Shown: positions 12 through 33,990 of the stretch, piece by piece
How positions within the stretch are numbered: the stretch's first letter is position 1
Layout: every line of letters begins with the position of its first letter
Origin: a virus
Length of the DNA: 34,483 bases
IMG/VR virus record: IMGVR_UViG_3300049847_000145
Coordinates: 1-34,483 of that record
Direction: 5' to 3' (one strand)
Notes under the pieces: generated by a model
What the model saw: the letters and a program-made list of their open reading frames with translations, nothing else
Database searches by the model: none
What the model was told of the DNA's origin: nothing
Made by a program: the position numbers and the translations under genes

Positions 12-182
12 ATGGCGGTGCCGAGGATCAACCCGAATCCGCATAGCAAAGCATACGCCATTGTGCCGGCGGGAACCAGGCTGGAATACCTGCATATGGC
101 GGGCCGGCCGGACCTGCGCGCCGAACCTCACGGGTGGAAGATGCCTATCCCTGTGAAAGTTGCTATAAGGATCATCAAATGA
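12..182 (+). CDS. Small hypothetical protein, possibly the C-terminal end of a longer gene
   Basis: The frame is open from the window edge to a TGA at 180-182, so the gene may begin upstream; the first ATG inside the window is at 12 and would give 56 residues. The stop overlaps the ATG of the methyltransferase (ATGA at 179-182), the same coupling used throughout this operon, which supports translation. The visible part is Pro- and Lys/Arg-rich without a motif I recognise. No function is assigned. Confidence 0.5.
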   Translation: MAVPRINPNPHSKAYAIVPAGTRLEYLHMAGRPDLRAEPHGWKMPIPVKVAIRIIK

Positions 183-943
183 CCGCGCTGCCGGGCGACT
201 GCCGCGAGCCGTGGAAGGAAAAGCGGGTGATCGGCAATGCCGAGCTTTACCTTGGTGATTGCCTTGAGATATTGCCTACGCTGCCGAAGGTGGATGCGGT
301 GATTACTGATCCGCCGTATGGCGCGAGGACGCATGATGGTGCGAGGACAGGATCGGGGAAAGGCGGGGGTGACGTGCTCATTGACTTTGCTTGCCTCCCA
401 GATAATCAATTTATTCCTCTATGCAAACAATTGGTGCATAAGGCGAATCGATGGGTAATTATGTCTTGCGAATGGCGACATGCAGCGCAATTAGAAGAGA
501 TGGAGTTGCTTGTCAGACTGGGCGTATGGGTGAAGCCAAATCCAACACCGCAATTTACTGGAGACCGCCCTGGAACTGGATGGGAGGCAGTTGCCTGCCT
601 ACACAGGCCGGGGAGAAAGAGATGGAACGGAGGTGGGCATTGTTCGGTCTGGACATATAACAAAGTTAATAGCGAGCATCCTACGGGGAAACCACTTCCA
701 TTGATCTCAAAATGGGTATCGCAATTTACCGACTTTAATGAGACGGTACTCGATCCGTTCATGGGAGGATGCACCACAGGCGTGGCCTGCGTAAATGCGG
801 GTCGCAAGTTTATAGGCATTGAGATCGATCCAAAGTATTTCGAGATAGCCTGCGAGCGCATCGAGAACGCGCAGCGGCAGACCTCTCTGCTCGACGACTA
901 CGACGCCGTGACGCAATCCTACGAACAGGTGAAGCTGATATGA
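179..943 (+). CDS. DNA methyltransferase, N4-cytosine/N6-adenine type, beta class
   Basis: Predicted to transfer a methyl group from S-adenosylmethionine to an exocyclic amino group in DNA, altering phage DNA so that host restriction or phage regulation sees it differently. The protein is 254 residues. The catalytic motif IV (DPPYG) lies at residues 44-48 and the SAM-binding motif I (DPFMGG) near residues 192-197, so the order is catalytic then SAM-binding, which defines the beta class. Motif I reads FMGGCTTG where most relatives have FxGxGTTG. I chose ATG 179 because AAGGA at 167-171 is 7 bases upstream; a longer GTG start at 134 exists. Residues 1-15 look like a second methyltransferase N-terminus placed ahead of the real family start near residue 17 (see findings). 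The last 13 residues are repeated at the end of the glycosyltransferase downstream. Function class is secure; target sequence unknown. Confidence 0.93.
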   Translation: MTALPGDCREPWKEKRVIGNAELYLGDCLEILPTLPKVDAVITDPPYGARTHDGARTGSGKGGGDVLIDFACLPDNQFIPLCKQLVHKANRWVIMSCEWRHAAQLEEMELLVRLGVWVKPNPTPQFTGDRPGTGWEAVACLHRPGRKRWNGGGHCSVWTYNKVNSEHPTGKPLPLISKWVSQFTDFNETVLDPFMGGCTTGVACVNAGRKFIGIEIDPKYFEIACERIENAQRQTSLLDDYDAVTQSYEQVKLI

Positions 944-974
944 CCACACTCATGGGCGACTGCCGCGACACGCT
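902..974 (+). repeat. 73-bp direct repeat, left copy
   Basis: Identical over 73 bases to 2224-2296, with similarity continuing about 15 bases further right. It covers the last 13 codons of the methyltransferase, its stop codon, and the first codons of an overlapping reading frame. Together with the right copy it brackets about 1.25 kb carrying the small partner gene and the glycosyltransferase. Confidence 0.97.
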
Positions 975-996
975 TAAGACGATTGCGAGAACTTAA
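940..996 (+). pseudogene. Truncated methyltransferase start (18 codons)
   Basis: An ATG overlapping the preceding stop (ATGA) opens an 18-codon frame beginning MTTLMGDCRDTL and ending at TAA 994-996. Sequences of the form xLxxGDCRxxL are typical of the first residues of phage DNA methyltransferases, just before the TSPPY/DPPY motif. Here the frame stops before any catalytic motif. The same start appears at 2262, where it leads into a zinc-finger protein. I read it as the 5' debris of a second methyltransferase gene broken by recombination at the repeat; it may still be translated as a short peptide. Confidence 0.55.
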
Positions 997-1013
997 ACAT
1001 AACCGGAGGCACT

Positions 1014-1409
1014 ATGAAACAACTTACTTTTCTCGAACAGGATGATCGCGCACCTAAAAAATATACTACCGTAGCTGGATCTCCTCTATACGTTCCGAAG
1101 GAACGCAGGCCGCATATTACTGATCTTAGAGACACGAACAAGCTAACGCAACTACTACGCTCTATTGATGCGTCGCAGGTTTCTCCTGAGGAAAAGATTT
1201 TCCTCGCGTCGGCAGCACAGCGGCATGTCGTTTTTAACTACGAATTGATCGCAGATTATTACGCGCATGCATCGTCTGAAATGCAAAGGCTCATGGAAGA
1301 ATCAGCATTAGTTATCATTGATATCGATCAGGCAATTGAGCGAGGCTACGTGCGTCTATGTGGAGAAATCAAGCGCTTGCACATGGAAGAGGTATCGGAC
1401 GGTGCGTAA
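1014..1409 (+). CDS. Hypothetical protein next to the DNA glycosyltransferase
   Basis: A 131-residue soluble protein with a strong ribosome-binding site (CGGAGG, 6 bases before ATG 1014). The N-terminus (KQLTFLEQDD) is followed by a basic linker and a helical C-terminal half containing NYELIADYYAHAS and a stretch rich in Met, Leu and Glu. From memory, similar proteins occur in phages beside methyltransferase and DNA-modification genes; I cannot confirm this by search. Its stop overlaps the GTG start of the glycosyltransferase by 8 bases, so the two are probably translated together. A role as partner or specificity factor for DNA modification is inference. Confidence 0.82.
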   Translation: MKQLTFLEQDDRAPKKYTTVAGSPLYVPKERRPHITDLRDTNKLTQLLRSIDASQVSPEEKIFLASAAQRHVVFNYELIADYYAHASSEMQRLMEESALVIIDIDQAIERGYVRLCGEIKRLHMEEVSDGA

Positions 1410-2265
1410 ATTCGCTGCGTTTATTCTCACGCACGGGAGACCGGACAACGTGCGCACTTTCAAGACATTGCGCGCGAGCGGGTACACAGGGAAGGTTTAC
1501 TTCATTGTCGATAATGAAGACGCGACAATAGACCAGTATCGGCGCAATTTCGGCGCAGAGAATGTAATCGTATTCGACAAAAAAGCGATGGCAGATAAAA
1601 TCGACGAAGCAAACAATTTCGATAACCGCAAGGTTATCGTACACGCGAGAAATGCTTCGTTCGATATTGCGGAGGATCGCGGGATTACTCACTTCGTGCA
1701 GCTAGATGACGATTATTATTTTTTTGGATTCCGTGGGAATTGTGGGGCTAGGACAATTCGTAAAATAGATTTCGTATTTGACGTGGTGCTAGATTTTCTA
1801 GACTCTACTCCTACGCTTGCTATTGCCTTTGCGCAAGGTGGAGATAATATCGGCGGGTTCACTGGAATCAAGATGCTTCGCAAGTCGATGAATTCATTTT
1901 TTTGCCGCACCGATAGACGATTCATGTTTGTTGGATCAATCAACGAAGACGTTAATACATACGTTTCTTTAGGAATGCGCGGAGGACTTTTTTTGACGTT
2001 TACCGGCTTGCAGCTAGATCAGAAAGATACTCAAAGCCAGGGCGGAGGTATGACCGAAGTTTATTTGCAGAAAGGAACATACGTAAAGTCCTTTACTTCA
2101 GTTTTGTTTAACCCTTCTGCCGTCCGCGTTTCGATGATGTCTACAAAACACGTTCGCATGCATCATTTAATAACTTGGCGTGCTACGTGCCCAGCGATTG
2201 TGCCGGAGTGCTATCGAAAACAAGACGCCGTGACGCAATCCTACGAACAGGTGAAGCTGATATGA
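1402..2265 (+). CDS. Glycosyltransferase, TET-associated (TAGT)-like; candidate DNA base glycosylase-type modifier
   Basis: Probable nucleotide-sugar-dependent glycosyltransferase of 287 residues with a GT-A-like layout. It begins KFAAFILTHGRPDN, has a metal/nucleotide-binding acidic motif LDDDY at residues 101-105, a second acidic motif NEDVNTY at 181-187, and conserved-looking His254/His255. This pattern fits the TET-associated glycosyltransferases described in phages, which are proposed to decorate oxidised pyrimidines. No TET/JBP oxygenase is in this window, so the substrate is inferred. GTG 1402 is preferred over the longer ATG 1318 because GGAAGAGG lies about 10 bases upstream and the longer start would run 92 bases into the previous gene. 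Residues 275-287 are identical to the methyltransferase C-terminus because the ORF runs into the right 73-bp repeat. The natural family C-terminus probably lies near residue 273. Confidence 0.8.
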   Translation: MRKFAAFILTHGRPDNVRTFKTLRASGYTGKVYFIVDNEDATIDQYRRNFGAENVIVFDKKAMADKIDEANNFDNRKVIVHARNASFDIAEDRGITHFVQLDDDYYFFGFRGNCGARTIRKIDFVFDVVLDFLDSTPTLAIAFAQGGDNIGGFTGIKMLRKSMNSFFCRTDRRFMFVGSINEDVNTYVSLGMRGGLFLTFTGLQLDQKDTQSQGGGMTEVYLQKGTYVKSFTSVLFNPSAVRVSMMSTKHVRMHHLITWRATCPAIVPECYRKQDAVTQSYEQVKLI

Positions 2266-2296
2266 CCACACTCATGGGCGACTGCCGCGACACGCT
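2224..2296 (+). repeat. 73-bp direct repeat, right copy
   Basis: Identical to 902-974. It supplies the last 13 codons and the stop of the glycosyltransferase and the ATGA-overlapping start of the next gene, in the same frames as in the left copy. Confidence 0.97.
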
Positions 2297-2555
2297 GCAA
2301 ACGATAGCGAGCGGCACTACTATATCCGAAAGCCACGACGAAAAAGAGTGCGCGAAGTGCGGCGAGTATTTGCCGGCTGATGCCGAATTTTTCTACCGTT
2401 GCAAAAAGAACTGGGACGACCTGCACGGATGGTGCAAGGCGTGCTGCGATACGGTGACAAGGCTCCGGCGCGAGCGAGAAAAGGCGGAACGATTGCGCGT
2501 CCGGGCTGAACGGCTCAGGCGCTACGAAATCTACAACCCTTTCGTGATCCTATGA
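2262..2555 (+). CDS. Zinc-finger protein with a methyltransferase-like N-terminus (chimera)
   Basis: A 97-residue protein starting at the ATG that overlaps the glycosyltransferase stop. Residues 1-15 (MTTLMGDCRDTLQTI) resemble the start of a DNA methyltransferase. After a short linker there is a Cys4 zinc-ribbon module, CAKCGEYLP followed by WCKACC, then a long Arg/Glu-rich helix. The CxxC...CxxC module resembles small phage zinc-finger proteins related to HNH endonucleases, but the HNH catalytic residues are not evident. The chimera probably arose when a methyltransferase gene was replaced downstream of its first codons. A DNA-binding role is inference. Confidence 0.72.
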   Translation: MTTLMGDCRDTLQTIASGTTISESHDEKECAKCGEYLPADAEFFYRCKKNWDDLHGWCKACCDTVTRLRREREKAERLRVRAERLRRYEIYNPFVIL

Positions 2556-3598: not shown

Positions 3599-4044
3599 CA
3601 ATCGAAAACCTCGGCGCGAGCCTGCTGCAGACCCTGGAACCTCGGCACGTGCATGTAGCGGACGGCAGAAAATGTTCACCACTAGACATGGGCAACGGCG
3701 ACAGCATCGCGGAAAAACCGGTGCGCACGCCGGAACAAGAGGCGGAACTCGCAAAGCGCAGGCGCATGCGGCGCGAGGCTAATGCTGCAGCGCGTGCGCG
3801 CAAGCATGCCAGGGACGGCACTGGCGGGCTGTGGGAAGCCATCGTTAAGGTGTTGCCGCCAGGGCCTGACGCTAACGGTAGGGGCATGCCCACGGGAGAC
3901 ATAGCGCGGCTGATCGGGCACGATCCCAAGAGCTTGGGCGCAACCTTGGGACACATGAAACGAGACGGCTGCATAGCGGGAACTGGCCGCAAAATCCAGA
4001 AGTGCGGATCGCATGAATGGTGGAAAGCGCCGGGCGAAAATTAA
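3595..4044 (+). CDS. Hypothetical protein with a possible winged-helix C-terminus
   Basis: 149 residues. The middle is a strongly basic Ala/Arg helix (residues about 50-70). The C-terminal 80 residues (MPTGDIARLIGHDPKSLGATLGHMKRDGCIA) read like a helix-turn-helix or winged-helix fold that counts MKRDG as its wing entry. Last gene of the ATGA-coupled chain before the tRNA. DNA binding is inferred from this pattern only. Confidence 0.72.
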   Translation: MTIENLGASLLQTLEPRHVHVADGRKCSPLDMGNGDSIAEKPVRTPEQEAELAKRRRMRREANAAARARKHARDGTGGLWEAIVKVLPPGPDANGRGMPTGDIARLIGHDPKSLGATLGHMKRDGCIAGTGRKIQKCGSHEWWKAPGEN

Positions 4045-4067
4045 ACGTGCCGCGCTCCACGACCTGA
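4043..4067 (+). repeat. 25-bp direct repeat, left of the tRNA
   Basis: The 25 bases from AAACGTGCC to GACCTGA occur here and again at 4162-4186 with one substitution (G to A at the tenth base). The pair brackets the tRNA with a period of 119 bases. The left copy overlaps the last bases of the preceding gene. Confidence 0.9.
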
Positions 4068-4077
4068 AAAAATTAAC

Positions 4078-4156
4078 GCGGCGTAACAAGCGCAAGGGAC
4101 GCGCAGCGGACTTCCAATCCGCAGACCGTGGAGTTCGACTCTCCTGCGCCGCTCCA
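4078..4156 (+). tRNA. tRNA-Gly(UCC), CCA encoded
   Basis: A cloverleaf can be drawn. The acceptor stem GCGGCGT pairs with GCGCCGC (last pair T-G). The D arm is GCGC-AAGGGAC-GCGC. The anticodon stem GCGGA/TCCGC holds loop CTTCCAA (anticodon TCC). The T arm is GGAG-TTCGACT-CTCC with a T-T mismatch at its base, and T73 and a genomic CCA end at 4156. G1-C72, C2-G71, G3-C70, U73 and C35 C36 are the known bacterial glycine identity elements, which supports the call. The odd point is a 5-base linker (AACAA) between acceptor stem and D arm instead of the usual two. It would read GGA codons. Confidence 0.8.
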
Positions 4157-4161
4157 GAATA

Positions 4162-4186
4162 AAACGTGCCACGCTCCACGACCTGA
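4162..4186 (+). repeat. 25-bp direct repeat, right of the tRNA
   Basis: Second copy of the 4043-4067 repeat, differing by one base. It begins 5 bases after the tRNA CCA end, an arrangement expected if the tRNA unit was inserted or duplicated as a module. Confidence 0.9.
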
Positions 4187-4287
4187 GCGAAAGTGCTATG
4201 ATTTCGCACCGCTGGCGGCCACCGGCGGTGTGTGCAATCGGCAAGGGCGGGGACTTGACCCCCGCCCGCGCCACCCAGTCAAGGGGT
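4187..4287 (+). other. Non-coding stretch with strong hairpins upstream of the next operon
   Basis: I see no gene here. There is a perfect 6-bp hairpin GCGAAA/TTTCGC (4187-4207, 9-base loop) and a perfect 8-bp hairpin GGGCGGGG/CCCCGCCC (4245-4267, loop ACTTGAC). A short ACCC/GGGT pairing (4273-4287) could cover the ribosome-binding site AAGGGG of the gene at 4292. There is no T-run after the large hairpin, so it is not a standard terminator. It may be an RNA processing or translation-control structure, or the scar of a second tRNA. Confidence 0.5.
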
Positions 4288-4291
4288 AAAT

Positions 4292-4561
4292 ATGAAAGAA
4301 TTATTCAATGCGATCCGCGTAGCACTTGGCGGTAAGTCTCTATCGACAGCAGCGCTAGAAGTTGTCGCCGAGGATTTGGATATTTACCCGCGAGAAAAAG
4401 TACTCACAGCATTGGGAAGATGCTTGATAGAGTGCCGTGGGAACCTGTTTTTGTGCGACGTTATTCAGCGCATGGATGACGGACATCTATACGTGCCCAA
4501 GCCGTTCTGGGAGGACAAGGAATTTATTGATTTCGTGAATTCCGGACGCAGAAGCAACTGA
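4292..4561 (+). CDS. Small hypothetical protein upstream of a DUF1376 gene
   Basis: 89 residues with ribosome-binding site AAGGGG 5 bases before the ATG. It starts MKELFNAIRVALGGKSLS, has a helical core (VAEDLDIYPREKVLTALGRCLIECRG) and a C-terminal DVIQRMDDGHLYVPKPFW. I recall similar small proteins directly upstream of DUF1376-type replication genes in other phages, which suggests a replication-associated role, but no activity is known to me. One base separates it from the next ATG. Confidence 0.75.
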   Translation: MKELFNAIRVALGGKSLSTAALEVVAEDLDIYPREKVLTALGRCLIECRGNLFLCDVIQRMDDGHLYVPKPFWEDKEFIDFVNSGRRSN

Positions 4562-4562
4562 C

Positions 4563-5267
4563 ATGAGCTTCTCCTACCTGGCGCTTTACACCGGCGATTA
4601 CCTGCGCGATACGCGTCACCTCACGCCGTTGAAACATGGAGTTTACCTGCTGCTCCTGATGCACTGTTGGGATTCACGCGGCCCGGCGCCATTGGATGAG
4701 CAGGAATGCGCCGGCATCGCTAACTGTCGGAGTTCTGACGAGGTAGACGCATTGCGCTACGTTCTGGAACGATACTTTGTCCGCATGGACGACGGCTGGT
4801 ACAACAAGCGAATCCAGAAGGAAATAGAGCGGTCATGCGCGATAAGCAACGCACGATCCAATGCGGGTAAGTTGGGATATCAAGCAAAAGCTAAGCAATT
4901 GCCTAGCAATTGGCAAGCAAGTGTATCTAACACCACCACCACCACTATTCCACCACCACCACCAGGGGTTGATGTTGTAGTGTCTCAAAGGGGTACACCT
5001 CATGCGCCACGCGATAAATCGCGCGACGCCGGAGACACGGCGACTATCGATGCGGTAATCTCGATCCCTATTGTCGGCGGCGGCGAATACCCGGTGTCGC
5101 AGCAGTTTGCGAGCGAACTCGAAGCACTTTACCCGGCGGTGGACATGCCCCAAACGCTGCGCGAAATTCGGGCATGGAACATCGCTAACCCTAAGCACCG
5201 AAAGACCGCATCTGGAATAAAACGTCATATTAATCAATGGTTTGCAAAGGATCAGAATCGTGGTTAG
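4563..5267 (+). CDS. DUF1376 / YdaU-family protein, probable phage replication factor
   Basis: 234 residues. The N-terminal domain (residues 1-100; FSYLALYTGDYLRDTRHLTPLKHGVYLLLLMHCW is too typical to miss in outline, with the hallmark YxGDYLxDTxHL) is the DUF1376/YdaU winged-helix-like fold found in lambdoid and other phages near replication genes. It is followed by a low-complexity linker of Thr and Pro runs encoded by CCA triplets (about 4930-4965) and a C-terminal domain ending KHRKTASGIKRHINQWFAKD, a common ending in these replication-initiation-like proteins. Likely acts in loading the replication machinery on phage DNA; this role is inferred from family context. Confidence 0.88.
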   Translation: MSFSYLALYTGDYLRDTRHLTPLKHGVYLLLLMHCWDSRGPAPLDEQECAGIANCRSSDEVDALRYVLERYFVRMDDGWYNKRIQKEIERSCAISNARSNAGKLGYQAKAKQLPSNWQASVSNTTTTTIPPPPPGVDVVVSQRGTPHAPRDKSRDAGDTATIDAVISIPIVGGGEYPVSQQFASELEALYPAVDMPQTLREIRAWNIANPKHRKTASGIKRHINQWFAKDQNRG

Positions 5268-5610
5268 AAAATACATCCCGGACACAGCTAAGGAATTCCA
5301 CGCCAACGCGCACATCCAATGCGCGCACGCCGATTGCGCCACGTCTGCAATGCACAAGGTCAAGACTGCGACGGGCTGGGCTAAATTCTGCGATGCCCAC
5401 TACGACGCATATTTTACGCAGCAAGGTATTGATAACATTGACAAATACGGAATGGAGCGCCAGCCCGACGAAACACGCCAGGAGCATGTCGGGCGCATGC
5501 GGAATTTTGTCCGCGCGGGATTCAAGCGCCTGCGCGCCGGCAGTGACAGGCAGGCCGCGCTTGCCGCATTGATCCGCGACCACGGAAGCGACCTGGGGAG
5601 CCAGCCGTAA
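5260..5610 (+). CDS. Small zinc-binding hypothetical protein
   Basis: 116 residues from GTG 5260, chosen because AAAGGA at 5246-5251 sits 8 bases upstream; the ATG at 5242 lies 25 bases inside the previous gene without such a site. The N-terminal half has CAHADC followed by FCDAHYD, a C/H-rich pattern fit for one zinc ion. The C-terminal half is helical and basic (HVGRMRNFVRAGFKRLR). Overlaps the DUF1376 stop by 8 bases, so probably coupled. Function unknown. Confidence 0.8.
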   Translation: MVRKYIPDTAKEFHANAHIQCAHADCATSAMHKVKTATGWAKFCDAHYDAYFTQQGIDNIDKYGMERQPDETRQEHVGRMRNFVRAGFKRLRAGSDRQAALAALIRDHGSDLGSQP

Positions 5611-5745
5611 ATGCCACGCAATCTAGCCAGGAACGCCGCCACGCGCACGGATCGGCTTTGGCGATACCAACCCATTACCTGGCAGCGGGAAAGCGCCAAA
5701 ACGCGCCCTGACGCGGCTAAAGCGGCTTTTCGAGCGCGGCGATAA
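5611..5745 (+). CDS. Possible small basic protein
   Basis: A 44-codon frame starting immediately after the preceding stop (TAA ATG), with GGGGAG about 10 bases upstream. It is very rich in Arg, Ala and Thr. Its last 29 bases overlap the convergent leftward gene ending at 5717. Support is position and ribosome-binding site only, so it may not be real. Confidence 0.35.
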   Translation: MPRNLARNAATRTDRLWRYQPITWQRESAKTRPDAAKAAFRARR

Positions 5746-5977
5746 GGGCGTCTGCCGCTTCGACGCATTCCACTGCGTTTCTGTTCGCCCAATCGTGCCG
5801 ATTCATAATATCAGGGCTGCCCATCGATCCAGCCAGCGCCTGCCCTGCCAAGTAGGCGCGCAGGGACATGCCACCGCTCCCTGAAAATTGATGTATTGTC
5901 ATACCGTCCTGCCCCGGAAATGATGCGCCCATAATAGGGCCGCACGGAAAAGCCTGTCCGCCGTCGGTTTTGCTCAT
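5717..5977 (-). CDS. Small phage protein (MSKTDGG family)
   Basis: 86 residues starting MSKTDGGQAFPCGP with a GMSLRAYLAGQALAGSM core, a pattern common to many small phage proteins of unknown function in early regions. ATG 5977 overlaps the stop of the upstream leftward gene (ATGA), which fixes the start; a longer open frame upstream is only the shadow of the alanine-repeat gene. Last gene of the leftward early operon. Confidence 0.8.
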   Translation of the reverse strand: MSKTDGGQAFPCGPIMGASFPGQDGMTIHQFSGSGGMSLRAYLAGQALAGSMGSPDIMNRHDWANRNAVECVEAADALIAALEKPL

Positions 5978-6639
5978 GCTGACACCGCATTGAGCCGATC
6001 CAGCAGGCCGCAAGGGTCCAGTTTTTCCCACACGTCGGCATCTGCGGCATCTGCGGCCGCACCGGCGGCATCGGCGGCACCGGCGGCATGGGCGGCACGG
6101 GCGGCACGGACGGCACCGGCGGCACCGGCGGCACCGGCGGCACGGGCGGCACGGACGGCACCGGCGGCACCGGCGGCACGGGCGGCACGGACGGCACCGG
6201 CGGCACCGGCGGCACGGGCGGCACCGGCGGCACTGTCGGAAGTGCGCAGCTCGCACATGGCGCGCCACGTGTCGCCGTGGCCATGCGCATCTGCTGCCGC
6301 CTGCGCCAGACTAAGCGAGTCCCACATCCAATCCATGATGATGGCGAGCCGTTCTGCATCGTGATCGTTGCCACTGCCAGGCGCATCTATGGCAGCAGCT
6401 ATCCACGCCTCGCTGTTGAGCAGAGCGAGCGGCATGCGATCCTGAATGATTATGATCCACGCGTGGATCACCGCCGACATGCAATCAGGGCGCGCGTCTG
6501 TCACGCGCCCGGTGGCAGCCACGTTCAGCGCGGCTATCGTGCAGGCCGCATCTTTGTCGCCGATCCCGTGCACGATGCGGTGCGTGCGCAGAAAGTCTGC
6601 GTACTGCTGGCGTAATTCTGGGGTGTAGATTTCGATCAT
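5974..6639 (-). CDS. Hypothetical protein with long Ala/Gly/Arg repeat tract
   Basis: 221 residues. Residues 1-130 form a globular-looking domain starting MIEIYTPELRQQYADFLRTHRIVHGIGD, with WIIIIQDRMP and WMWDSLSL. Residues about 135-205 are a low-complexity tract of AAGAARAAGAVR-type units. The last 20 residues (WEKLDPCGLLDRLN) look like a conserved closing segment. I recall phage relatives with the same two ends and an Ala-rich middle of variable length, so the tract appears to be a real, length-variable part of the protein. ATG 6639 has GGAG 7 bases upstream within the module shared by this operon. Function unknown. Confidence 0.78.
   Translation of the reverse strand: MIEIYTPELRQQYADFLRTHRIVHGIGDKDAACTIAALNVAATGRVTDARPDCMSAVIHAWIIIIQDRMPLALLNSEAWIAAAIDAPGSGNDHDAERLAIIMDWMWDSLSLAQAAADAHGHGDTWRAMCELRTSDSAAGAARAAGAAGAVRAARAAGAAGAVRAARAAGAAGAAGAVRAARAAHAAGAADAAGAAADAADADVWEKLDPCGLLDRLNAVSA
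6055..6235 (+). repeat. GC-rich 9-bp tandem repeat tract
   Basis: About 20 tandem units of the type GGCACCGGC with variants GGCACGGGC and GGCACGGAC, arranged in a higher-order pattern of about 36-45 bases. It lies inside the leftward gene 5974-6639 and encodes its Ala/Gly/Arg tract. Because the unit is a multiple of three, several frames on both strands stay open through it, giving spurious collagen-like (GGT) and Ala/Pro frames. Confidence 0.9.
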
Positions 6640-6734
6640 GATTTTCTCCGGTTGTTGATCTGAAGTGTTAGGCGTCTCGTTTCAGTCCAGGCCGGTCGCT
6701 GGCGGCGCGTCGCGGAAGATTGCGGCGATGCGCT

Positions 6735-7178
6735 CTAAAGCTTGGGCCATTTCCTCGCGCCGGCCTTGCGACGCTCTCTCATCGCTGCGACGTAGGCGCG
6801 GCAAAGGTCGGCAACTTCGTCCACCGACGCGCTGACATTATCACCGTAGCCGTCGCATGCCTCGGACCAAACGCCGTCACAATCGTCGGGCATTAGCGCG
6901 ACGCAGGTATGCAACTTTACCCGCTTGCTTACGCACGCAAGGTCGTGCAACTGGCGCCGGTATTCAGCCGCGGCCGGTCTCGCGGCGTAGAACTCGTTTT
7001 GCTTTTGGACAGCTCGAGCGAATGCGTCTTGGGGCGTGATGCCAATTTTGAGCTTGCCGCTGATCTTCCAGCCGCTGCCATGATTGACTAGCACCTTGCC
7101 GTCGCTCATGTAGCGCTTGACCTTGCAGGTGTACTGAATTGTGCCGACGATGGTGCCATGTGCTGATAGCCTTGCCAT
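6735..7178 (-). CDS. Hypothetical protein
   Basis: 147 residues from ATG 7178 with GGAG 6-7 bases upstream. The N-terminal half reads as beta strands (TIVGTIQYTCKVKRYMSDGKVLVNHG), the C-terminal half as helices ending in a basic RERRKAGARKWPKL. Five cysteines are present in the middle. No family recognised. Member of the leftward early operon controlled from the 8271-8571 region. Confidence 0.72.
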   Translation of the reverse strand: MARLSAHGTIVGTIQYTCKVKRYMSDGKVLVNHGSGWKISGKLKIGITPQDAFARAVQKQNEFYAARPAAAEYRRQLHDLACVSKRVKLHTCVALMPDDCDGVWSEACDGYGDNVSASVDEVADLCRAYVAAMRERRKAGARKWPKL

Positions 7179-15866: not shown

Positions 15867-17609
15867 ATGGCAATCCGGGTAACGACAGCGTGGGTTGAGC
15901 GAACCGCGAATCTGCCGTCTCTAACCGCATTCAGCGCGTGCTGCTGGTGTATCCCAGCAATTGCGCCAACTCAATGGATGAGTGCGCTTGGATTTGGTGT
16001 TACTTCGACCAGCAGTTCGCATATTTTGTTAGGCAATAGCAATACCGGCAACAGTAACAACGCGTGGGGAATCTCCGAGGGTCTTAGCGCTACCCAGGCA
16101 AACTTTGCCAATGCGCCAAAGGCGGGCCAACCGTGCTTTCTGGGTATGACGAATAACGGCACAAATCTCATCGGGTATTCGCGGATATCGTTTCGCCCGC
16201 GATTGGATATTGCCACGCTGGGCGTGGTGGCGACGGGCACCGCGAATTCATTTCGCGCCGGCAACTCTGTATATGATGGTACAGATTATTTCGACGGCGC
16301 GCTCTGGAATGTCAGGTTGTGGGATCGTGTCCTTACGGCGGCCGAGATGTTGGCGGAATCATATTCTCCCTACCCAGTATCGACGAAGAATTTGAATTTG
16401 TGGTGGCCGCTAGACACACGGCAAAAATTGATAGACGCGAGCGGACGTAATCACCCGCCGTCTGTCAGCGGGACAATGGTAACGGCAAAATCGTCTAGTG
16501 TCGGATACCGAGACAGATCGCGGGCGAGGACACGTCTAAGGGCGAAGTCCGGTGGCGTCAGTGATGTTGTCATAACGACAATTACCGGAAATGCCGTTGC
16601 AAATGGCGTTGTAGCTGCAGTCAATAGAAGCATTCCTGCAGGCGTAGGAAACGCAACCGCAGACGGAATAACCGTTGCTGTAATCCGTGTTGTAGCTACG
16701 ACCACCGGAAATGCGGTTGCGGACGGCACGCTGGCTGCATTAAACCGCAGTATCCCAGCCGGCGTCGGTAATGCCGTTGCCAACGGCGTAACTGCATTCA
16801 TCACACAAACGATTGCCACCACAACCGGCAACGCAGTTGCTGATGGCGTGACGGCGGCCGTCAACAGGATCATCGCCAGCGGGGTAGGGAACGCAGTCGC
16901 CGATGGCACCACGGCAACCATAGTCACCGGTGGCCAAACAACCATCACTTGCACGGTAGGCAATGCGGTTGCGGACGGCGTTACGGCGGCGATCAACAGG
17001 TCAATACCGGCTACCACAGGAAACGCAGTTGCAGATGGGACGCTGGCGGCTGTATCGCGGATCGTATCCACAGTAACCGGCAACGCAGTAGCAGACGGTG
17101 TGACCGCTGCCATCACGGGATCGATAACCATCCTGTGCCAGCCCGGCAATGCGGTCGCAGACGGCGTGACGGCACTAATCACCGGTGCGCCGGACGCTGG
17201 CGCCAGGTTTGGCGGCTTCGAGATGGTGGGCGACAAACCGAGGCGCCCAGTCCCGGAGGTCTACAAAAAGCCGCTGTTGCAGCGCATCATGGAGGCGCGG
17301 CAAGCCGTCAAAGACGAAGCCGTGGCCGCCGCCGTGCCGGAGCGCAAGAACGCGCGCCGTAAGGCCCGCGAAGTCGAGGAAACCACCGCCAAGCTGGTCC
17401 TGGAGGGTGCCGCAGACGCCAAATTTGCCGCCATGCTGGCGAAATGGGAGTCCTACAAGCCGGCGTTACACGAAGTTGACTTAACGGACGCAATTACGGC
17501 GTATGATATGTTTATGGCGCGCGTGGCCGACCAGGTTATGCGCATGCAGGACGGCGAGGCCGAAGACGAGGCGATTGTGCTCGAATTGATACGCAGCGGG
17601 ATCATTTAA
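15867..17609 (+). CDS. LamG-like virion protein with ten 20-residue GNAVADG repeats
   Basis: 580 residues in three parts. Residues 1-220 look like a concanavalin/LamG-type jelly roll (YDGTDYFDGALWNVRLWDRVLTAAEM is the classic LamG closing signature in outline), a carbohydrate- or protein-binding fold. Residues about 230-440 contain ten tandem copies of a unit beginning GNAVADG or close variants, about 20 residues each and separated by Thr/Ile-rich strands. Residues 450-580 form a charged helical domain (AVKDEAVAAAVPERKNARRKAREVEE). A surface-exposed head or tail fibre is likely; the repeats may vary in number. The start is weakly supported (GAGG 13 bases upstream). Confidence 0.75.
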   Translation: MAIRVTTAWVERTANLPSLTAFSACCWCIPAIAPTQWMSALGFGVTSTSSSHILLGNSNTGNSNNAWGISEGLSATQANFANAPKAGQPCFLGMTNNGTNLIGYSRISFRPRLDIATLGVVATGTANSFRAGNSVYDGTDYFDGALWNVRLWDRVLTAAEMLAESYSPYPVSTKNLNLWWPLDTRQKLIDASGRNHPPSVSGTMVTAKSSSVGYRDRSRARTRLRAKSGGVSDVVITTITGNAVANGVVAAVNRSIPAGVGNATADGITVAVIRVVATTTGNAVADGTLAALNRSIPAGVGNAVANGVTAFITQTIATTTGNAVADGVTAAVNRIIASGVGNAVADGTTATIVTGGQTTITCTVGNAVADGVTAAINRSIPATTGNAVADGTLAAVSRIVSTVTGNAVADGVTAAITGSITILCQPGNAVADGVTALITGAPDAGARFGGFEMVGDKPRRPVPEVYKKPLLQRIMEARQAVKDEAVAAAVPERKNARRKAREVEETTAKLVLEGAADAKFAAMLAKWESYKPALHEVDLTDAITAYDMFMARVADQVMRMQDGEAEDEAIVLELIRSGII

Positions 17610-31978: not shown

Positions 31979-32971
31979 TCACGCCCCCGCCGCAGCTTGC
32001 TGGCCTTCGATGTATTGACGTGCTTTGTCGATTCTGGCCTTGGTTTCATCTCGAAGTTCGGCATATTGGATTCCTCGGCACAGATCGTACGCCATGTCGA
32101 ACTTTTTGCTCTTCACACACGCTGCTATCTCTGACACGAGCTGTACATCCGGAGGCGCAGGATGACCTGGTTGCAAGGCATCTTCCGGGGCTGATTCCCC
32201 TTTCACCTGCGCCGCCGCTACTTTTGTTGAACCGCTCGCCCATTGCGCCAATACCATGCCGGTTTGTTCGTCCAGCGGGCGCTTCAAGTCGATGATCTTG
32301 CGGTGTTGATCCTGTAGTTTTATAGGTTGCGGGATGCCTGGCCTATCTGCAGTAAGCAGAAAGCTTGCCGTCGCCTCGAATGGCAGATTCTTTTCGCACA
32401 CCGGAATCCAGCCATCAAGCCCGGTAAGCGACTGCTTTGCTTGAATGACCATCTTCCCGTTCTCTTTTACCATTTCAATTTTCTGTTCCGCGCGCAGGCA
32501 CAGGATGATATGCGCCTTCACTTGCAATAGCTTCTGCACCATCTGCTTGTGCGACATCTTGGGCTTGATCCAAGCCGCCATTTTGCACTGCTCGCGCTTC
32601 TTCCAATCGTCGCCGGCCATGCGGTCAAGCTCATCATCTTGCCAGTCCAATACTCCGCCGTCGCCGGCCCATACGTGCGAGCCTGAATCAACTACAATCA
32701 CCGGGTATCCAGCTTGGTCCGCCGCCATAATTGCTTCGGCGTAGGCGTCCGGCCGAAATGGCGCACGCAGGTCGGCGTGGTCGAACCGGAACTGATCGGC
32801 ATAGTGCAGTGCGCGGCGGTTCTCGGTGTCGATGATAGCGAACGGATTTTTGCCGGATATGCCGGAGGCCAGCCGCAGTGCCGAAAATGTCTTGCCGCTG
32901 CCGGTCCCGCCAATGACGTTAATCCACAATCCTACGTTTTCCCTGATAGCCTTGCGAAAAGTGATAGTCAC
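31979..32971 (-). CDS. AAA/RecA-type ATPase, partner of the exonuclease
   Basis: 330 residues. Walker A GGTGSGKT at residues 21-28 and Walker B VIVVDSGSH at 91-99 define an active P-loop ATPase. The middle has SLTGLDGWIPVCEKNLPFEATASFLLTADRPG and the C-terminal 80 residues form a helical domain after a Pro/Ala linker. This is the phage AAA_24-type nucleotide-binding protein that usually accompanies an exonuclease in recombination operons, used for strand exchange or DNA repair. It overlaps the nuclease stop by 4 bases. Confidence 0.9.
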   Translation of the reverse strand: MTITFRKAIRENVGLWINVIGGTGSGKTFSALRLASGISGKNPFAIIDTENRRALHYADQFRFDHADLRAPFRPDAYAEAIMAADQAGYPVIVVDSGSHVWAGDGGVLDWQDDELDRMAGDDWKKREQCKMAAWIKPKMSHKQMVQKLLQVKAHIILCLRAEQKIEMVKENGKMVIQAKQSLTGLDGWIPVCEKNLPFEATASFLLTADRPGIPQPIKLQDQHRKIIDLKRPLDEQTGMVLAQWASGSTKVAAAQVKGESAPEDALQPGHPAPPDVQLVSEIAACVKSKKFDMAYDLCRGIQYAELRDETKARIDKARQYIEGQQAAAGA

Positions 32972-33873
32972 AGCGGAATCCCTCCCTCAAGTTCAACCTC
33001 CGAAAACGCCGTATTAACCTGCATTTCCTCGGCCTCGTTGATTTGCCAGGCGCGGGGCTCGGCGTAGGCGATGCGCGTCGGGTAAGCCGGCCACGCGTCA
33101 TTCTCAACGCAGCGCCTCCACGTTTCCAGCGCCGAATCGAGCTTCGCCGCCGCCAGTTCACGCCATGCTGGCGAAAGCGCCACGAGGCTGCACGAGAACG
33201 GGGGCTGCTGCTCTTGGACCAGGTGCACGGCTATGCAGGCATCAACTCCGTACGCGATGCGCACAGCGCGCTCATAGAACAGCGTTGCGGCATCGTAGCC
33301 GGGTAGCTGGGTGCGAATCCATGCGTCCGGCTTGGCGCTGCCAAGCGTCGTCTTGTAGCTCAGGCAGATGCGGCGGTCCGTGGCCAGAAAGTCGGCGCGC
33401 GCCTTGCAGGCGAGGCCGTTCATGTCGAACAGCATCGTTACTTCCGGCTCGCCGTCGTCAAGAATACCGGCCAACTCGCTGCTGGCGAGGTACGTTTTCG
33501 CTGCGATAACCATCATGTGAACACCCTCGAACTGCTCGACGAGGATCGGTATCTTTCCCTCCGCTCTGGCGGTGTCGCGGGCGCCGCGGATGGCCTTGTT
33601 TGTCCAGCCGTCAGGGATATTCCCGTTTTTGGCACGATAATCCTCCGGGTCGATTACCGCGAGCGCATTGGTCCCGCCTTCCAGCAGGCAGGCGTGCGCA
33701 ATCGTGCCGATGTCTGCCACCGCGCTGTTATCCTGCTCGCGCGCCGGGTTCCACGGCGAATCAATCCACGCGTGCAACGGACTCTGCGCCAAAATGCGGT
33801 GGCACAGGCCGCTCGATACCGCCTTGTGGGCGATGTATTCCTGCATGGTCATCGTTGCGATTTGCGTGCTCAT
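32968..33873 (-). CDS. PD-(D/E)XK exonuclease-like protein, catalytic Asp apparently lost
   Basis: 301 residues from ATG 33873 (MSTQIATMTMQEYIAHKAVSSGLCHRIL); GGGAGG is 9-10 bases upstream. Family features: a start with SP.HAWIDSPWNP, GTIAHACLLEGG, then the PD-(D/E)XK core with Glu144 (GEPEVTML), Asp161 (CKARADFL) and Lys174 (SYKTT). Members usually carry Asp two residues before this Lys (DYKTT or DLKTT). Here codon 172 is AGC, Ser, so the metal site lacks one ligand and cleavage may be weak or absent. Together with the ATPase downstream it forms the phage recombination pair. The longer frame to 33990 includes a helix-turn-helix remnant (separate entry). Confidence 0.85.
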   Translation of the reverse strand: MSTQIATMTMQEYIAHKAVSSGLCHRILAQSPLHAWIDSPWNPAREQDNSAVADIGTIAHACLLEGGTNALAVIDPEDYRAKNGNIPDGWTNKAIRGARDTARAEGKIPILVEQFEGVHMMVIAAKTYLASSELAGILDDGEPEVTMLFDMNGLACKARADFLATDRRICLSYKTTLGSAKPDAWIRTQLPGYDAATLFYERAVRIAYGVDACIAVHLVQEQQPPFSCSLVALSPAWRELAAAKLDSALETWRRCVENDAWPAYPTRIAYAEPRAWQINEAEEMQVNTAFSEVELEGGIPL

Positions 33874-33990
33874 GTCATTCCTCCCATGCGTTGCCGCGCG
33901 CATCGCCCGCACGGTGGTGTCCGGCAGTTTTGCGCGTTGGTGGTCTTCACCCACGCGGTATCCTCGGTGATTGCGACGTATGGCAGTCAC
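33874..33990 (-). pseudogene. N-terminal remnant of a small DNA-binding protein, in frame with the exonuclease
   Basis: From GTG 33990 (GTGA overlap with the preceding stop) 39 codons run in frame into the exonuclease. They contain RRNHRGYRVGEDHQRAKLPD followed by TTVRAMRAATHG, the typical first half of small phage helix-turn-helix proteins (GYRVGExHxRAKxxDxxVRxMR). The second half with the recognition helix is missing. This looks like a deletion joining the start of that gene to the exonuclease leader. The fusion could still be made from the GTG. Confidence 0.5.

Follow-up and report, generated by a model that had tools for sequence, protein, structure and literature searches.

How did a small gene and a glycosyltransferase gene come to lie between two identical stretches of viral DNA, each of which joins the end of one gene to the start of the next, and could recombination between these stretches remove the pair again? 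The question is raised by IMG/VR virus record IMGVR_UViG_3300049847_000145, a contig of 34,483 bases from an environmental sample that is classed as linear and that was analysed over its whole length (the window). Methyltransferase A, repeat 1, a dead open reading frame of 18 codons, a gene for 131 amino acids, a TAGT-family glycosyltransferase gene, repeat 2 and a zinc-ribbon gene follow one another in this order (Table 1). The glycosyltransferase start overlaps the small gene by 8 nt, while ATGA overlaps are found at 940-943, where methyltransferase A ends, and at 2262-2265, between the glycosyltransferase and zinc-ribbon genes. The gene anatomy that an earlier note on this DNA had described around the cassette is borne out by these coordinates and overlaps; it had not mentioned the dead frame opened by copy 1, the third copy of the start leader at 179-207 or the 15-bp diverged tail of the repeat.

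Table 1. Features of the cassette locus, candidate recombination genes and repeats beside modules in other viral loci
Feature	Position	Strand	Description
Methyltransferase A	179..943	+	254 aa, amino-methyltransferase, DPPY motif (N6_N4_Mtase); Pfam 8e-21, phrog_67 1e-58
Third, diverged leader copy	179..207	+	83% over 29 bp against ATGACCnCnCTnnnGGGCGACTGCCG
Repeat copy 1	902..974	+	exact 73 bp: end of methyltransferase A (13 codons plus stop), ATGA overlap, then first codons of a second methyltransferase, probably lost
Dead 18-codon ORF	940..996	+	MTTLMGDCRDTLKTIART and stop; a TSPPY-type methyltransferase start, probably cut off (weak N-terminal matches)
Diverged extension of copy 1	975..989	+	4 mismatches in 15 bp against 2297-2311
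Cassette between repeats	990..2223	+	GC 45.3%
Ribosome-binding leader of small gene	1001..1016	+	AACCGGAG-N5-ATG; same type as six minus-strand genes
Small partner gene	1014..1409	+	131 aa; similar to ParB-like phage proteins in their C-terminal part (phrog_620)
TAGT-family (PF20691) glycosyltransferase	1402..2265	+	287 aa, GTG start; Pfam 2e-35, phrog_842 8e-65
Repeat copy 2	2224..2296	+	exact 73 bp; source of the stop codon of the glycosyltransferase and of the start of the zinc-ribbon gene
Zinc-ribbon gene	2262..2555	+	97 aa; phrog_3273 match, 2e-13
Sak4-like protein (AAA_24)	31979..32971	-	candidate for repeat-mediated recombination
Exonuclease VIII-like PDDEXK nuclease (DUF3799, phrog_412)	32968..33990	-	usual partner of annealing proteins
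Repeats beside other modules			L013, 27 bp exact; L016, 31 bp at 90%; L082, 52 bp at 87%

The repeat is seen directly in two copies, 1322 bp apart from start to start, and its length is far beyond chance: the next-longest exact repeat in the window is 19 bp (a 9-mer array left out), and the longest exact repeats in 20 first-order Markov simulations measured 13-16 bp. As the earlier note had held, the identical copies bracket the small gene and the TAGT gene, and each of them comprises a gene end, an ATGA overlap and a gene start. Aligned without gaps, the match extends to 88 bp at 95% identity (902-989 and 2224-2311), and all four mismatches, at 975, 976, 978 and 984, fall in the last 15 bp, a clustering at one end with P = 5.9e-4; three of the four are at third codon positions. 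Considering that mismatches are confined to this end, two recombined alleles or a homogenisation of 73 bp fit better than one simple duplication, and the cluster beyond the 73 bp points to recombination or homogenisation at the boundary.

Against this pattern we weighed a single illegitimate insertion, in which staggered ends or template switching duplicated an 88-bp target and left the repeat as the scar of a now static event. Such an insertion would agree with a cassette in which neither gene matches a recombinase in profile searches, from which a homing endonuclease is also absent, and at whose ends there are no terminal inverted repeats (longest inverted match 5 bp). Illegitimate recombination has been proposed as a general route to phage mosaics (PMC3029335). 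However, a simple duplication would not be expected to place four mismatches within the final 15 bp while the other 73 have none, and we regard this origin as doubtful. A transposon or site-specific element with target duplication was rejected, as there are no recombinase and no terminal inverted repeats. Being an IMG/VR contig classed as linear, the record could also be an assembly artefact in which two strains or loci were joined across the repeat. Yet on either side of it the frames, overlaps and ribosome-binding sites fit together, and the order of partner and glycosyltransferase is that of 93 other loci. Short reads and long k-mers usually exceed 73 bp, which likewise counts against an artefact, and we consider this explanation highly improbable.

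The glycosyltransferase looks like an intact TAGT, with 123 bits against the PF20691 profile, whose curated cut-off is 27.5. Since 41 residues are invariant among this protein and 29 relatives, the DxD region among them, there is no sign of decay. Its predicted structure resembles GT-A enzymes, and a comparison with the sequences of solved structures returned chance matches only. For T6-type phages, TAGT is considered the likely source of the second glucose on glucosylated hydroxymethylcytosine (PMC13390438). The case for the DNA glycosylation expected by the earlier note is weak here: the TAGT looks intact, but Tet_JBP (TET), a source of the hydroxymethylated bases on which the family acts, was not detected in the fragment by a profile search in which no control rang, and it is present in just one of 36 module-bearing records. 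With TET undetected in the fragment and in nearly all of these records, the function is read from the family only, according to which the gene product probably adds sugar to phage DNA.

In most TAGT relatives, the protein stops at or just after a conserved '..YKK' ('..KK' and stop). Here the family domain ends at residue ~273, and one codon past the '..YKK' position the repeat begins; directly visible in the sequence, it continues the frame from this natural end and adds 13 C-terminal residues that methyltransferase A also has at its end. The structure prediction leaves this tail disordered, with pLDDT below 50 for residues 276-287. Because the family normally ends where the repeat begins, the repeat is, on this comparison, a fusion scar that replaces the glycosyltransferase stop codon.

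The second half of the repeat encodes MTTLMGDCRDTL, which in the phage collection matched only the N-termini of DNA methyltransferases, in three distinct cyanophages and each time weakly (E about 5). These matches take the form MKNTILFGDCRDTLPTI...CVTSPPYYGLRNYG, and both sequences read run on to CVTSPPYYGLRNYG. While the frame opened by copy 1 stops after 18 codons, the same head in copy 2 is fused to the zinc-ribbon protein, of which the first ~20 residues are the methyltransferase-like leader and the family match starts at residue 23. The leader ATGACCnCnCTnnnGGGCGACTGCCG is seen at three gene starts; its three matches are the only ones in the window, all at ATGA starts, with zero expected by chance. 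Methyltransferase A begins with an added leader, MTALPGDCRE, as its first ~10 residues. Its homologues lack this leader; they begin at what would be residue ~13-16 here or have an unrelated short start. Two pattern scans for the leader gave no match in viral or genome contigs, and its comparison with profile libraries and plasmids gave no informative match. Considering the cyanophage methyltransferase matches, the dead frame, the fused zinc-ribbon head and the third leader copy together, a second methyltransferase was probably lost, and the head in the repeat is probably its remnant, kept at gene starts. This origin of the leader is drawn from matches that are short and singly weak, and we call it probable. 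As a separate observation, motif I of methyltransferase A (750-790) reads DPFMGGCTTG and not DPFMGSGTTG, the sole such variant among the methyltransferases of the loci compared, and the enzyme may be impaired.

The three leader copies also bear on the idea that the repeat is kept for a function, as a translation-start unit (AGGTGA, ATG and first codons) reused before successive genes. The leader does stand at three ATGA starts, and the phage also reuses a AACCGGAG leader at seven gene starts; but half of the repeat lies before the start and belongs to the 3' end of a coding region, the only frame that copy 1 opens is the dead one of 18 codons, and a separate ribosome-binding site serves the partner gene, so that we find such a function very improbable. 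A bolder view takes the leader copies as a recurrent landing site, where methyltransferase A, the glycosyltransferase module and the zinc-ribbon gene each came to lie behind the same severed methyltransferase start and annealing at the 73-bp repeat, driven by the phage, would still swap or remove the youngest of them, so that phages with a DNA sugar and phages lacking it would arise. We think this quite unlikely.

Whether the cassette belongs to a module with a history outside this phage was assessed from 93 other viral loci, 80 found via the glycosyltransferase and 13 via the partner, a few of which are truncated where the contig ends. Partner and glycosyltransferase were both present in all 93 and adjacent in nearly all, and the pair is linked also in Lactobacillus, Escherichia, Salmonella, Vibrio, Nocardia and Haloarcula phages; it is a real travelling module that moves as a unit between unrelated phages. 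Among single loci, L049 has a methyltransferase-like gene between partner and TAGT (4102-4986), and L110 has two tandem TAGT genes, the second lying between partner and TAGT (5396-7119). Alleles of the pair were swapped between phages with nearly identical flanks (L014/L013 against L035, and L021 against L078). The sequences of L014 and L035 are 95-100% identical until about 100 bp inside the partner gene, after which the module drops to 61-93%, and a similar change of identity occurs in L021 against L078 at the other side of the module; the flanks of phages exchanging module alleles are 93-98% identical. Direct repeats within 500 bp of both module ends occurred in 3 of 80 other modules and 1 of 383 control windows (Fisher P = 0.017), an enrichment that is suggestive only, because the controls were random windows and not gene-aligned.

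In this phage, the foreign composition of the cassette is directly seen, as its GC content lies below that of all 665 sliding windows of equal length, with a window mean of 56%. The module was absent in 37 of 38 portal-related records, the remaining one having a remote glycosyltransferase match of 24%, and methyltransferase A had any match in five of the 38. Considering both the lowest GC stretch and the absence from most portal-related records, the cassette is, by these sequence criteria, foreign to the phage and horizontally acquired. The earlier note's view of the cassette as a separable module bounded by repeats is supported; the module is patchily distributed among portal-related phages, and its alleles are exchanged elsewhere between near-identical phages.

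The partner gene is often annotated as ParB-like in phages carrying the linked pair. Its relatives are mostly about 130 aa long, and a few have an N-terminal ParB-like domain; an N-terminally truncated ParB protein was rejected, as most relatives also measure about 130 aa. Its structure model (pTM 0.57) had no significant structural match. The AACCGGAG-N6-ATG arrangement was noted at minus-strand gene starts 6637, 7176, 7432, 7748, 8015 and 8236, with the N5 form on the plus strand at 1001. With one mismatch allowed, the N6 form has eight matches, six of them exact, against 0.4 expected. Since the partner gene shares this type of leader with six phage genes, the sequence suggests that a phage of a similar kind brought the module in.

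For the reverse step, we computed the deletion product that leaves a single repeat copy. Joining 1-974 to 2297 onward keeps both flanking frames open: methyltransferase A retains its end, the zinc-ribbon frame is unbroken and ATGA couples the two, so that the clean removal described by the earlier note holds in the computed join. Genes for a Sak4-like protein and a PDDEXK exonuclease (Table 1) are also present in the phage and together make a plausible engine for annealing between the repeats. We then consider an active presence/absence switch, in which both forms coexist as sugar-plus and sugar-minus phages and are interconverted via the 73-bp copies. The repeat length would permit this, 73 bp being at or above the published minimal lengths for RecA-dependent recombination, which are 23-27 bp for RecBC and 44-90 bp for RecF (quoted in PMC12074656), and the encoded Sak4-like protein and exonuclease, the open frames after deletion and a perfect copy 1 that is partly without useful coding, as homogenisation would leave it, all agree with a switch. 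However, the second form was unseen in all collections searched, regain would require a second module-bearing genome in the same cell while deletion is easy, and a recent single event accounts equally well for the identity of the repeats. We therefore judge an active switch unlikely.

The search for relatives was as follows. No empty-site relative and none with alternative cargo was found in the viral and genome collections searched; a junction search of viral contigs gave eight matches, none of which on inspection had a homologous junction. A search for relatives with the zinc-ribbon protein gave no match, methyltransferase A had distant relatives only in genomes, and the left arm had no close relatives in the collections searched. 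Because the relatives found by the portal, many of which are fragments, have the structural arm in common with this phage but not the left arm, no empty site can be read in them. In the comparison with relatives lacking the glycosyltransferase that the earlier note had proposed, the module was absent from 37 of 38 portal-related records, none of which covers the junction. The short form was not seen in any collection searched, and a mixed population with and without the cassette is only predicted, from the repeat in this single contig.

We favour, at a probability of about 0.62, the reading that the module was acquired at the junction of methyltransferase A and a second methyltransferase (B), can be deleted and transferred by recombination between the repeats, and probably adds sugar. 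The two-gene module of ParB-C-like partner and TAGT would have entered by recombination at a common junction, between two phages or sister copies with different methyltransferase B alleles, leaving junction sequence on both sides, and the remainder of methyltransferase B would have been lost. Host RecA, or the phage Sak4-like protein and exonuclease, could then drive homologous recombination or single-strand annealing of the two 73-bp copies and so delete the module, which would yield methyltransferase A, ATGA and the zinc-ribbon gene. Through the same homology, phages that have the module could hand the cassette on to phages that lack it.

Other features of the contig were recorded in their own right. 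A tRNA-like sequence at 4078-4152 scored 28.7 bits with the Rfam tRNA-Sec model, below the gathering score, and was not called by ARAGORN; it adjoins, and lies partly inside, a pair of 41-bp direct repeats (4027-4067 and 4146-4186, 85%). A tandem 9-bp array of GGCACCGGC type occupies 6036-6240 within overlapping open frames on both strands, and the 580-aa ORF at 15867-17609 contains about nine degenerate repeats with ~60-nt spacing (16576-17181) as well as a weak lectin-like domain. No Rfam family reached its gathering score in the contig, and promoter-like sites were at chance level only.

Among known systems, mycobacteriophage LRRHood carries genes 43-46 on 1.35 kb flanked by 29-bp direct repeats, of which relatives including Cali have one copy, and in Island3 genes 67/68 compared with Brujita, about 60 bp are common to the 3' ends of neighbouring genes and the relative has a single copy; both cases are accounted for by recombination inside the repeats (PMC3029335). 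Our cassette resembles LRRHood as an extra accessory-gene segment between direct repeats at gene ends (PMC3029335), whereas here the 73-bp repeat spans a gene end and the next start and supplies the last codons of the cargo, and no empty-site relative was found. It resembles Island3/Brujita, where two neighbours have 3' ends of ~60 bp (18 C-terminal residues) in common and recombination there adds or removes a gene (PMC3029335), but here the shared stretch includes the start of the next gene, and a short-form relative was not found in the collections searched. As in phage-mosaic conserved boundary sequences and morons, short junction homology permits optional-gene exchange; here, in contrast, a fused remnant, which probably stems from a lost methyltransferase, forms the boundary, and one part of it occurs in three copies. 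The wzy locus of Salmonella Typhimurium likewise lies between perfect direct repeats, of 113 bp, and its clean excision leaves one copy (PMC12074656), but wzy is on a bacterial chromosome where reversible excision was experimentally shown (PMC12074656), while the phage case is predicted from sequence. The glycosyltransferase shares its sequence family, invariant residues and GT-A-like model with TAGT, or beta-glucosyl-HMC-alpha-glucosyltransferase, of T6-type phages (PF20691, phrog_842; PMC13390438), but differs in that no hydroxymethylated-base pathway was found nearby, where TET was looked for, and in its constant ParB-C-like partner.

Although no empty-site relative was found, the cassette works like, and we file it with, direct-repeat-bounded accessory segments of the LRRHood/Island3 type, an already known kind, on two features: long direct repeats at gene boundaries on both sides, and horizontally acquired cargo absent from most relatives (by GC; 1 of 38 records). 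It would be a new example of optional gene gain and loss in phages, an optional DNA-modification module with boundaries still legible, in which the constant small partner of TAGT is a putative targeting or accessory subunit. If both forms exist, the gain and loss of a likely restriction-evasion trait would be directly measurable by PCR.
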